A DNA stretch of 29,119 nucleotides from a virus: positions 1-29,119 of the IMG/VR virus record IMGVR_UViG_3300037587_000130; one strand, 5' to 3'. Positions 10,900 to 13,852 of the stretch are shown in pieces. The number at the start of each line of letters is the position of its first letter. Position 1 is the stretch's first letter. The position numbers and the translations under genes are program-made. The notes below the pieces were generated by a model. That model saw only the letters and a list, made by a program, of their open reading frames with translations, was not told the origin of the DNA and did no database searches.

Positions 10900-11091
10900 T
10901 TACGAACTCCCTTTTAGTGCATTAAACAATGCCTGCGCGTGTACCGCCGCTGTGTATTCGCGTTCGATCTGAGTTGCAGCCGCTTCCAGCGCCATTTTAG
11001 CCGCCATCGGGTCCGAACTTTGTTTCCGGGCCATGCTGATAAGTACCTTAGCGGCTTCTAAAATCTGGTCGGTATCGTATTCTTTAGACAT
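10900..11091 (-). CDS. Small helical protein, 63 aa
   Basis: I do not recognise this protein. It starts at ATG 11091, within the last codons of the helicase gene (8-base overlap), with GGAG upstream. It is almost entirely helical and alanine-rich (ILEAAKVLISMARKQ and MALEAAATQIEREYTAAVHA), suggesting a small helical bundle or coiled-coil partner. Tight coupling to the helicase hints at a helicase accessory, but nothing in the sequence proves it. Confidence 0.7.
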   Translation of the reverse strand: MSKEYDTDQILEAAKVLISMARKQSSDPMAAKMALEAAATQIEREYTAAVHAQALFNALKGSS

Positions 11092-13852
11092 TTGCTAGTT
11101 CTCCCAATTTAAAATTAACCCGTTCCGCCAGCGCCAGGGCGTCGGCAGCTTTCAAAGTTTGAGCGGTCATAAAGTCCAGCCCGAACGCGAAGAAAAAACG
11201 GCGGTAAATTTCGCTATCGTCCTGACCGGCGGCCCGGTGATAACCGCCCCACCACGACATAGACGCCCGTAACGCTTCCTGGGCTTCCTGGCGTTCCCGG
11301 TGGCGCTTGAGTTCCGCCCGTTGGCCGATAATCGGCATGTATTTGCCTTGTACTTCGGCGAGCTTTTCCGCTTCGGTCATATCCACAGCGGCAATAGCGC
11401 CCCGAAGTATCGCCAGCGCTTCGTCGGACAGCTCGATTAAATCACCATCCACCTGTTCCGGCAGTGATCGGCCGCCCGGCGGCGTAACGTAGCCGCATTC
11501 TGGGCAAGCTTTATAAACGCGCTCGTAGACAAACTGACAAATCGGATCGGGGTTGAGGCACGTACGGACTGGGATAACGTCCGACGGCGCCGAACTGCTA
11601 CGACGCTCCCGACGGTCGAGCGACCATTCGCGGTACGCGTCTGGTAGCCCGTGGCGTTCCACGTTACCCACATGGTCGATAATGATAGCGGCCGGTTTCG
11701 AGCTGGCGGCAATATGCGCCCGGCGTTCTTCGTCGGTTATTGTGTCCCATATCGGGTATAGCGCCCCGTCGATCATAAGGCGAAGCGCCCGTCCGAACTG
11801 CTGGACGAACAACGCGAAGGACTGGGTAGGTCGGGCCATGCTAACGACTTCGATAGCGGGAAGGTCGAACCCTTCGCCGAATAGGTCCACGTTAACGAGC
11901 TGCAGCAATTCGCGACGTTTGAACCGGGCCAGGATAGCGATACGGTCCGCGTCGGGTGTTTTGGCGCTAACGACTTCGGCCGGTACTCCTGCGGCGTTAA
12001 ATTGCGCGGCGATATCGGTAGCGGTTTCGACGTCCGTAGCGAACGTTACGCCCAGCTTACCCGGTGCGATTCGTAAATAATGCCCGACAACGTCGCCGAT
12101 GATATGTGATTTTTTAGCGGCGGTTTTCAACTGCGCTCTGGACCAATCGCCCGACGCCCCGGCTTTTTGGTCGTCGATAATCAGGTCCGACGGTGGCGCG
12201 AATATCCGGTAATCGGTTAAGTAGCCCATATCGATAAGTTCGCGCATACCGGGACCCTGGACCATAACGTCGAACAATCCGTCCGCGTGGCGCCCCAGGC
12301 CTTTACCGTCCGCCCGGGTGGGGGTGGCAGTAACGCCCAGGCCTTTAGCGTTGGGGAACATCGCCGCAGCGGTACCCCATTTATTTTCTTTTAATACGTG
12401 GTGACAGTTATGAACGACCACGCCTTCCGCTACATAGGTGTGCAACCCTTCAACTTCGATATTGTAGACAAAACCGTCGAACTGATTTTTTCCGGATCGC
12501 TCAATATCTGCGCGTTTGAGAATCGAAACACTACCCACCCTTTGCCAGTCAAAAACGCGTCCTTCCTGGCGTCCTGGGCCTGGCGCTCTAAACTGCAATG
12601 ACTGGTCCCGTCGGCTTCGATTGCTATTTTTAACAACTCGTTCCCGCAGTCTATTTTGTAATGATTCGGCATTCCGTTCGCCCCGCGATATGCACCCGTC
12701 CGTACTATCGTCTGGAGACTGAAACCGTGAATTGTGAATATCTCCGATAACATCTTTTCCGCTTCTGTCGCCGGTCGACCGTTGCCCCCTCGAATCTTCG
12801 GCGAATGACCTATCCGCTTCAACGTCGCCGACATTTTCGCGCGAATGTCTGCTTGATGCATTGGGTTGTTTTTCGTCATTCGTTCCGACGCATATTTCCG
12901 GTTCGTTTCCACCATTGTTTCGGATGATCGTTTCGCTTTGTATGCCTTCGAACATTCCAGGCTGCAATAGGCGCGCCCCGTCTTCTGGTATTGCACTTTT
13001 CGATGCACTGACATATTCGCCAGATTCCCACACGTCGTACAACTCACAATCGGCAGGGGTTGTTTTTTCCTCGGTGGTCGATTCTGTTCCCGGTGTGCAT
13101 TGCCGCATGTTTTCGAACAAAATATCCTCCCTGTTTTCCGCCACCGATACCGCTGCGACTCCCCGGTTTTGAATATCGAAATTTTGCAAAACGTACACGC
13201 TATCGGATTCGGTAATATTTCCCGCATTAACCCACCCTCTATCTGTCCAAATTGGATGCCCTTTTGTACAGTTTAACACATGGTGTCCGGCTTGAATACT
13301 AACCAATTCGGTAGGTGTTGGATTTTTAAATAATCGTTCTACTCGCCGCTTTTCGAACCCTCCTGTTTTTTCATTAAATGCGGTTACATAGTCGCCTACA
13401 TTGATAGTCTCGATAGGGTGACCGTCTACTAACGTACCAGCGGGGAAACATTCGTCTTGAACCCACAGGGTTACCGACTGCAACCAACCGTTTAAGTCGT
13501 CCCCGCGACGGACCAGGGTATCGACGCCGGCAACGGCGCACGATGCCGACGGATCGTAATAGCTATTCCCCACTTCCACCATGTGAAGGTTAACGCACAA
13601 CTTAACGACGTTTTTAGGGCCTATAATTCTATGTCGGACACCTTCACGCGCTAAAGCTATTGAAATTTGAGAAACTAACTCTTGCCGATGGGCGATTACA
13701 CACACTGGACCGTTATGTCGGTGGACAATATTAGCCAGCAATATAGTTTTACCGGCGCCGGTGGGTAACACGGCCGCTATGTTGCTATTCGCGATATTCC
13801 ACTCGTTATATATGTCGGTTTCGGCTTGCTGCTGGTATGGGCGAAGTTTCAT
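11084..13852 (-). CDS. SF2 DEAD/DEAH-type helicase interrupted by an intein
   Basis: The precursor has 922 residues; after removal of a 348-residue intein (135-482) the mature helicase would have 574. Motif I PTGAGKT is at 30-36, motif Ia-like AHRQELVSQ follows, and motif II is DECHH, split by the intein between DE (133-134) and C483-HH. Motif III-like VTATPTR lies near 507, and the motif VI region QQFGRALR is in the second RecA domain. CPECG late in the protein may be a zinc site. The unspliced protein would have a broken ATPase site. It probably acts in replication or recombination with the primase and VRR-NUC nuclease downstream. The ATG at 13852 has only a weak ribosome site. It is transcribed from 13894-13922. 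Confidence 0.92.
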   Translation of the reverse strand: MKLRPYQQQAETDIYNEWNIANSNIAAVLPTGAGKTILLANIVHRHNGPVCVIAHRQELVSQISIALAREGVRHRIIGPKNVVKLCVNLHMVEVGNSYYDPSASCAVAGVDTLVRRGDDLNGWLQSVTLWVQDECFPAGTLVDGHPIETINVGDYVTAFNEKTGGFEKRRVERLFKNPTPTELVSIQAGHHVLNCTKGHPIWTDRGWVNAGNITESDSVYVLQNFDIQNRGVAAVSVAENREDILFENMRQCTPGTESTTEEKTTPADCELYDVWESGEYVSASKSAIPEDGARLLQPGMFEGIQSETIIRNNGGNEPEICVGTNDEKQPNASSRHSRENVGDVEADRSFAEDSRGQRSTGDRSGKDVIGDIHNSRFQSPDDSTDGCISRGERNAESLQNRLRERVVKNSNRSRRDQSLQFRAPGPGRQEGRVFDWQRVGSVSILKRADIERSGKNQFDGFVYNIEVEGLHTYVAEGVVVHNCHHVLKENKWGTAAAMFPNAKGLGVTATPTRADGKGLGRHADGLFDVMVQGPGMRELIDMGYLTDYRIFAPPSDLIIDDQKAGASGDWSRAQLKTAAKKSHIIGDVVGHYLRIAPGKLGVTFATDVETATDIAAQFNAAGVPAEVVSAKTPDADRIAILARFKRRELLQLVNVDLFGEGFDLPAIEVVSMARPTQSFALFVQQFGRALRLMIDGALYPIWDTITDEERRAHIAASSKPAAIIIDHVGNVERHGLPDAYREWSLDRRERRSSSAPSDVIPVRTCLNPDPICQFVYERVYKACPECGYVTPPGGRSLPEQVDGDLIELSDEALAILRGAIAAVDMTEAEKLAEVQGKYMPIIGQRAELKRHRERQEAQEALRASMSWWGGYHRAAGQDDSEIYRRFFFAFGLDFMTAQTLKAADALALAERVNFKLGELANV
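12407..13450 (-). mobile_element. Intein coding segment (Hint domain) inside helicase motif II
   Basis: The intein runs from Cys135 of the precursor (codon 13448-13450) to Asn482 (12407-12409), and Cys483 is the +1 nucleophile. Block A is CFPAGTLVDG, block B contains LNCTKGHPIW (Thr196, His199), block F is FVYNIEVEGLHTYVAEG and block G is VVVHN before C. All residues needed for standard class 1 splicing are present. Between residues about 222 and 455 the intein frame is polar and low in hydrophobics (SRENVGDVEADRSFAEDSRG is typical). It shows no LAGLIDADG or HNH motif. The same DNA encodes an endonuclease in another frame (12430-13227). The insertion point, in a conserved ATPase motif, is typical for inteins. 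Confidence 0.93.
12430..13227 (-). CDS. Homing-type endonuclease (Vsr-like/EDxHD) nested out of frame in the intein
   Basis: This encodes 265 residues on the same strand as the helicase, in the +1 frame, wholly inside the intein DNA. ATG 13227 follows AGAGGGTGGG, with GAGG 8 bases upstream. It has two zinc fingers (C11-x2-C14...C37-x3-C41 and C63-x2-C66...C88-x3-C92), then a NUMOD3-like NPMHQADIRAKMSATLKRIG (121-140). The nuclease core has E155/E157, D193 in YKIDCGNELLKIAIEADG, then H210, D219, D223 and GWVVFRF. This matches Vsr-like endonucleases of the EDxHD/DUF559 type, used by homing enzymes linked to split inteins and introns. It should cut intein-free helicase alleles and spread the intein. 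It starts just after block B and ends in block F. A frameshift fusion product cannot be excluded. Confidence 0.88.
   Translation of the reverse strand: MREILPNPIACTFCKISIFKTGESQRYRWRKTGRIFCSKTCGNAHREQNRPPRKKQPLPIVSCTTCGNLANMSVHRKVQYQKTGRAYCSLECSKAYKAKRSSETMVETNRKYASERMTKNNPMHQADIRAKMSATLKRIGHSPKIRGGNGRPATEAEKMLSEIFTIHGFSLQTIVRTGAYRGANGMPNHYKIDCGNELLKIAIEADGTSHCSLERQAQDARKDAFLTGKGWVVFRFSNAQILSDPEKISSTVLSTISKLKGCTPM

Follow-up and report, generated by a model that had tools for sequence, protein, structure and literature searches.

A putative homing endonuclease gene overprinted in the +1 frame of an intein in a phage SF2 helicase

At motif II of a phage SF2 helicase gene there is very probably a mobile intein whose homing endonuclease is not fused to it, being encoded instead by the same DNA in its +1 frame. 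To our knowledge, inteins have been thought to hold their endonuclease as an in-frame domain or, if split, as a gene between the two halves. The locus lies in a stretch of 29,119 nucleotides (IMG/VR record IMGVR_UViG_3300037587_000130, positions 1 to 29,119), the whole of which we call the window. The window is a piece of phage genome, in which the neighboring genes encode a primase, a DNA polymerase, an exonuclease, an ssDNA-binding protein and baseplate proteins. The coordinates of the features are collected in Table 1.

The helicase reading frame matches ResIII (2.4e-14) and Helicase_C (8.6e-11) in Pfam, and DNA helicase in PHROG (5.8e-80). The intein is inserted at DE/CHH, within the motif II box, with junctions VQDE/CFPAGT on the N side and VVVHN/CHH on the C side. 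Shewanella phage SppYZU01 has a helicase without intein that is 70% identical on either side and reads DEAHH at the insertion point, and uninterrupted homologs lacking the insertion are also found in 141O35-1 and 1.024.O. Pfam recognizes Intein_splicing (5e-8) and PT-HINT (4.5e-7) in the insertion. Among the relatives C1, H65 and N348 are invariant, T62 and H347 are present in at least 90%, and the +1 Cys is found in nearly all. AlphaFold (AF2) folds residues 1–90 and 300–348 as a HINT domain, and the folded part is matched by Foldseek to the bacterial intein-like domain 2lwy (5.7e-7) and the Mtu RecA intein (4e-5). Residues 94–299 are predicted to be mostly disordered, with pLDDT around 47. 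By blocks A, B, F and G, by predicted fold and by insertion pattern this is a class 1-like HINT intein, which would be expected to excise itself and ligate its exteins.

In the +1 frame the same strand contains 265 codons running from an ATG to a TAG. In intein numbering this reading frame starts at residue 75, right behind block B (T62 to H65), and runs to residue 339, where block F ends. The original prediction had claimed a complete 265-residue protein in this position, with its own ATG and GAGG, two zinc fingers and a Vsr-like/EDxHD core, and all of these elements were recovered. The window nuclease matches DUF559 in Pfam (E = 3e-11), as do all 58 relatives scanned. Across 62 sequences the catalytic residues D193, D206, H210 and D219 are invariant and E204 is present in at least 90%. 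With 58 sequences AlphaFold predicts the whole nuclease to be folded (pLDDT 92.5); the AlphaFold alignments were built without phage-record rows. Residues 152–261 match the folds of 3hrl (Z 13.1), the I-Bth0305I endonuclease (3r3p, Z 11.2) and Vsr (1cw0, Z 9.8). The prediction had expected similarity to NUMOD sequences as well as to DUF559 or Vsr-like proteins. The latter stood, but the NUMOD3 profile of Pfam found no match in the window nuclease (E ≤ 1) or in the 58 relatives (E ≤ 0.01), so that 'NUMOD3-like' describes a resemblance by eye only. Judged by its sequence and modeled fold the +1-frame protein is an EDxHD/Vsr-like nuclease, and it would probably cleave DNA.

Table 1. Positions of the helicase, intein and overprinted nuclease features in the window.
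Feature	Position	Strand	Remarks
SF2 (ResIII/Helicase_C) helicase gene with intein	11084..13852	(-)	single uninterrupted 922-codon ORF
N-extein, C-terminal end ...WVQDE at helicase motif II	13451..13852	(-)	aligned to intein-free SppYZU01 helicase
Intein, 348 aa, C1 to N348	12407..13450	(-)	junctions, Pfam, HINT fold
C-extein, starts CHHVLKENKW, stop codon included	11084..12406	(-)	junction and SppYZU01 alignment
Intein block A (CFPAGTLVDGHPI)	13412..13450	(-)	C1 invariant, n = 58 sequences
Intein block B (..CTKGHPIWTDRG), T62 and H65	13235..13276	(-)	H65 invariant; T62 in ≥90% of relatives
Intein blocks F (GFVYNIEVEGLHTYVA) and G (EGVVVHN)	12407..12472	(-)	
Putative EDxHD/Vsr-like homing endonuclease gene, 265 aa, +1 frame of helicase/intein	12430..13227	(-)	
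GAGG, Shine-Dalgarno-like, 8 nt 5' of nuclease ATG	13236..13239	(-)	
First Cys4 zinc finger of nuclease (C11, C14, C37, C41)	13105..13197	(-)	zf-FCS 1.7e-4
Second Cys4 zinc finger of nuclease (C63, C66, C88, C92)	12952..13041	(-)	cysteines nearly invariant
Conserved helical motif of nuclease, consensus SSETM..TNRKYASxRMKKNNPM	12859..12924	(-)	
EDxHD/Vsr-like catalytic core of nuclease, residues 152–261 (D193, E204, D206, H210, D219)	12445..12774	(-)	
Dual-coded segment, predicted folded in both frames: nuclease 226–265 (strand GWVVFRF and C-terminal helix), intein 300–339 (HINT strand and block F)	12430..12553	(-)	

The same arrangement is found by tblastn in the genomes of Vibrio, Pseudomonas and Corynebacterium phages, with nucleases 42–58% identical to that of the window and always at an equal offset, and alignment-based scans added many more loci. 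One phage with the arrangement is Corynebacterium phage phi673, a laboratory phage of C. glutamicum ATCC13032. A single-sequence scan of IMG/VR with the nuclease gave no match where the alignment scan succeeded, and a plasmid search returned distant DUF559 proteins only. We counted 120 distinct loci; in 107 the host frame is open across the entire nuclease, and the C-junction is visible in 104 of these and out of view in 3. The other 13 comprise six split forms, three in-frame fusions and four free-standing genes. The register of the nuclease relative to the host frame is constant across loci, and the remaining frame averages 17 stops. The overprinted layout is therefore no single oddity but the commonest of this nuclease family. 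The survey was seeded with the window nuclease and its scans scored nuclease-frame residues only, so the proportion holds for this nuclease clade and not for EDxHD enzymes at large. Six relatives had at first seemed to have broken nucleases; these are intact, the tblastn match having extended beyond the end of the reading frame.

Such openness is not expected by chance. On synonymous permutation of the window nuclease 10.3 host-frame stops are predicted and none is observed, and none of 400 permutations was free of stops. For 60 non-redundant nucleases there are 0 host-frame stops against 578 expected, which rules out a chance open frame, while the third frame has 1071 stops against 989 expected. 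All 60 were drawn from the class with an open host frame, and the fairer statement is therefore that 107 of 120 loci are open, the probability of an open frame by chance being below 0.04 at every locus tested and below 0.0025 at most of them.

Substitution ratios calculated for each frame, as the original prediction had proposed, are 0.05–0.21 for the nuclease frame and 0.16–1.9 for the host frame in close pairs. They come from a simple four-class count (nonsynonymous or synonymous effect in each frame) over about 14 independent comparisons. Purifying selection on the nuclease frame is strong in 30 of 30 close pairs, some of which are not independent of each other, and the host-frame ratios are noisy over their range. 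Selection is chiefly on the nuclease frame, and the host frame is mostly not under strong purifying selection. Stop depletion in the one frame and purifying selection in the other mark a same-strand overlapping gene pair. Given that AlphaFold predicts a disordered middle for the intein and a folded nuclease, the overprinted middle would serve the intein as a spacer while encoding an enzyme in the +1 frame.

The end of the overlap behaves differently. Compared with a synonymous-shuffle null the conservation of the host frame is modest in the mid-region but reaches z > 20 over nuclease residues 226–265, although z values are inflated everywhere by shared descent. Block F and the intein strand RVxSVEI are located here. 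The sequence GGG TGG AAA GTG TTG AGA TTC encodes the nuclease strand GW.VLRF and reads in the host frame as VESVEI, a HINT strand. Codon choice in the GWxVLRF strand is skewed; the Leu codon is TTG in 41/47 sequences (background 241/856, 28%) and the Arg codon is AGR in 44/58 (background 369/906). The free-standing relatives L117 and L072, whose nuclease lies immediately upstream of an intein-free helicase, use other codons in the strand, do not encode VESVEI and have stops in the host frame. On the predicted structures, the final ~40 codons specify folded structure in both proteins.

In the six split relatives the host gene is divided between two reading frames with the nuclease gene between them. 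In five of these (L084, L086, L089, L127 and L133) a stop ends the N-intein, followed by the nuclease and then the C-intein back in the old frame; among these five, an ATG is available for the C-intein in the three whose starts were listed. In the sixth, the clamp loader L169, one TAA separates the split from the overprinted form. The split intein of L184 (2400–4200) has a nuclease decayed by a stop and a deletion, which fits the prediction of a homing cycle. In L186 (2558–4675), L193 and L194 a zinc finger and EDxHD-like nuclease lie in frame within an intein, in a gene that by eye resembles that of a MuF-like capsid protein. In a quick tree of the nucleases the split forms require at least two changes and are placed among the overprinted ones. 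Many forks of this tree are weak, so the direction from overprinted to split is no more than likely.

Vibrio phage helicases with N-exteins 93–96% identical have one and the same site in three states: empty (141O35-1, 1.024.O), occupied by a mini-intein (K389, K459) or occupied by the overprinted intein (K391, 1.027). Between K391 and 1.088 the intein is 94.4% identical in DNA sequence, against 79–82% for the exteins. Empty sites, and an intein more alike than its exteins, indicate that the intein is mobile and that lateral transfer was recent. The insertion point suggests the intein-free helicase site as the recognition site of the nuclease. The mini-intein of K459 and K389 (L034 and L189) has 150 aa, lies at DE/CHH, contains no nuclease and is dissimilar in sequence to the overprinted intein. 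Vibrio phage PS65A.1 (L191, 1850–4981) also has a mini-intein at DE/CHH, together with a second helicase intein at Walker A (GGGK/CHRKG...THN/TVVAA) that by eye is of the LAGLIDADG type.

Among the host genes of the overprinted intein are those of SF2 helicases, SNF2-type ATPases and clamp loaders, and insertion is at or just past the DE of the DExx motif. A phage clamp loader (L111, 1083–4067) has an apparent second intein at Walker A (STGC/VDKDTEF...TGN/CGKTT). Some loci are from phages, others from contigs classified as Pseudomonadota, Bacillota, Verrucomicrobiota and Thermodesulfobacteriota; a number of the contigs classified as bacterial may represent prophages, or phage sequence that was binned into a MAG. 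In Azospirillum canadense (L124) the overprinted intein lies within an open frame of 3268 codons with a helicase C domain. In L028, L036 and other public phage records the locus is annotated just as helicase or coil-containing protein, and the nuclease is unannotated.

How would the nuclease be translated? Shine-Dalgarno-like sites of at least 4 nt precede 39 of 56 nuclease starts, compared with 18 of 101 in control frames. For sites of at least 5 nt the numbers are 27/56 and 2/101 (p = 1e-12); the sites are weak or absent in 17/56 relatives. Programmed +1 ribosomal frameshifting from the helicase/intein frame would instead produce the nuclease as a fusion, and the 15 open codons that precede its ATG in the window would allow this. 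Yet in 23 of 52 relatives an ATG lies 0–3 codons past an in-frame stop (TAG-ATG in L037, TAA-TTT-ATG in CP-T1, for example), and Shine-Dalgarno sites are enriched (here p = 1e-10). We consider frameshifting very unlikely. Since so many relatives have an ATG within a few codons after a stop, translation from an internal start is more likely than frameshifting.

It is just as improbable that the nuclease frame is a relic of a fractured or free-standing endonuclease gene that is read through by chance and no longer produced. Split and free-standing forms do exist. But the strength of purifying selection in all the close pairs, the invariant catalytic residues and the recent transfer of the intein all speak against a relic, and the case that would have counted against the original prediction, a broken nuclease within an intact intein, is absent among the overprinted members; the one decayed copy seen is that in the split intein of L184. 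Still less credible is that the long host frame is an artefact, the intein being split or inactive and the openness due to chance or composition. The disordered middle and its slight constraint would agree with this, but the host frame lacks all of its expected stops where the third frame has its expected number, the intein halves and both junctions are intact in complete overprinted loci, and a helicase that was not spliced would presumably be inactive. The least probable explanation, which we give almost no weight, is that the insertion is a group I or group II intron carrying an endonuclease gene. EDxHD endonucleases occur in group I introns as well (PMC3943268), but the window has no match in Rfam, the host frame is open, and the catalytic residues and predicted HINT fold of an intein are present.

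Returning to an intein overprinted by its endonuclease, we computed double coding, conservation, predicted folds, selection, Shine-Dalgarno enrichment, site polymorphism and lateral transfer, from which we infer a scheme in which the nuclease is translated and cuts DNA, the protein is spliced, and split forms descend from overprinted ones. One mRNA would give two products. Initiation at the helicase ATG would generate a precursor containing both HINT halves, linked by a disordered loop of ~200 residues that corresponds to the nuclease gene read out of frame, and these halves would splice the precursor to active helicase. Initiation at the internal Shine-Dalgarno and ATG right behind block B would give the separate 265-aa EDxHD nuclease. 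This would cut intein-free helicase genes at the sequence coding for DE(A/C)HH, whereupon repair would insert a copy of the intein. Selection would act chiefly on the nuclease, while the host frame would have to remain open and retain its folded ends. A stop codon in the host frame would then create a split intein with the nuclease between its halves, i.e. the fractured-gene layout. The original interpretation is largely right, with cleavage and splicing expected from sequence and models.

Canonical full-length inteins have an in-frame homing endonuclease (LAGLIDADG or HNH) between blocks B and F. The window nuclease also lies between these blocks, but in the other frame, as a separate protein that has ~40 codons in common with the splicing domain. 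Fractured genes, reportedly recognized by Dassa and colleagues in 2009, are said to be split inteins that occur in phage genes for DNA metabolism and have the gene of a Vsr-like/EDxHD endonuclease placed between their two parts. Our six split loci share that layout. The host frame of the window locus, like that of 106 others, is by contrast uninterrupted, with the intein in one chain and the endonuclease overlapping it out of frame. The distant nuclease relatives of L186, L193 and L194 (29%) share a zinc finger and the RMKKNNPM motif, but there nuclease and intein are in one frame without overlap. I-Bth0305I shares the catalytic fold, but is encoded in a group I intron and has 21% identity over the aligned core.

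The original prediction's third, overprinted arrangement was upheld by the survey, although the idea had already been published for an insertion that does not splice. In the ShiLan domain and the Pacc40 insertion an out-of-frame endonuclease leaves a phage host gene open (Arsenault, Gosselin, Gogarten 2025, PMC11855218). ShiLan has an HNH enzyme, no splicing domain and no detectable ribosome binding site, and the insertion is thought to remain in the protein (PMC11855218). The window resembles them in having an endonuclease out of frame within an insertion and an open host gene, but has an EDxHD enzyme, an intein (HINT) domain with all splicing blocks, and Shine-Dalgarno sites. An out-of-frame endonuclease in a splicing-competent intein was not found in our literature search, the coverage of which excludes Gorbalenya 1998 ('Non-canonical inteins') and the preprint 10.1101/2025.01.02.630785. 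There may be an earlier description; the latter is a 2025 preprint of the ShiLan group on non-canonical phage inteins.

On balance we lean, by a modest margin, towards regarding these loci as a widespread, previously unrecognized class of intein with a +1-overprinted homing endonuclease, present in phages and in bacterial contigs from several phyla and inserted at the DExx motif of ATPases of the SF2, SNF2 and clamp-loader kinds, in which single host-frame stops would give rise to split inteins and hence be a source of fractured genes. Overprinting would be a third layout, with the nuclease a separate protein, the host gene whole, and ~40 codons common to two folded domains. Whole and split inteins would be connected by a concrete route, that of one stop codon, as in L169. 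It would also mean that nuclease genes are hidden in public phage records under such plain annotations. With this system one can directly test how split inteins arose and what double coding costs.
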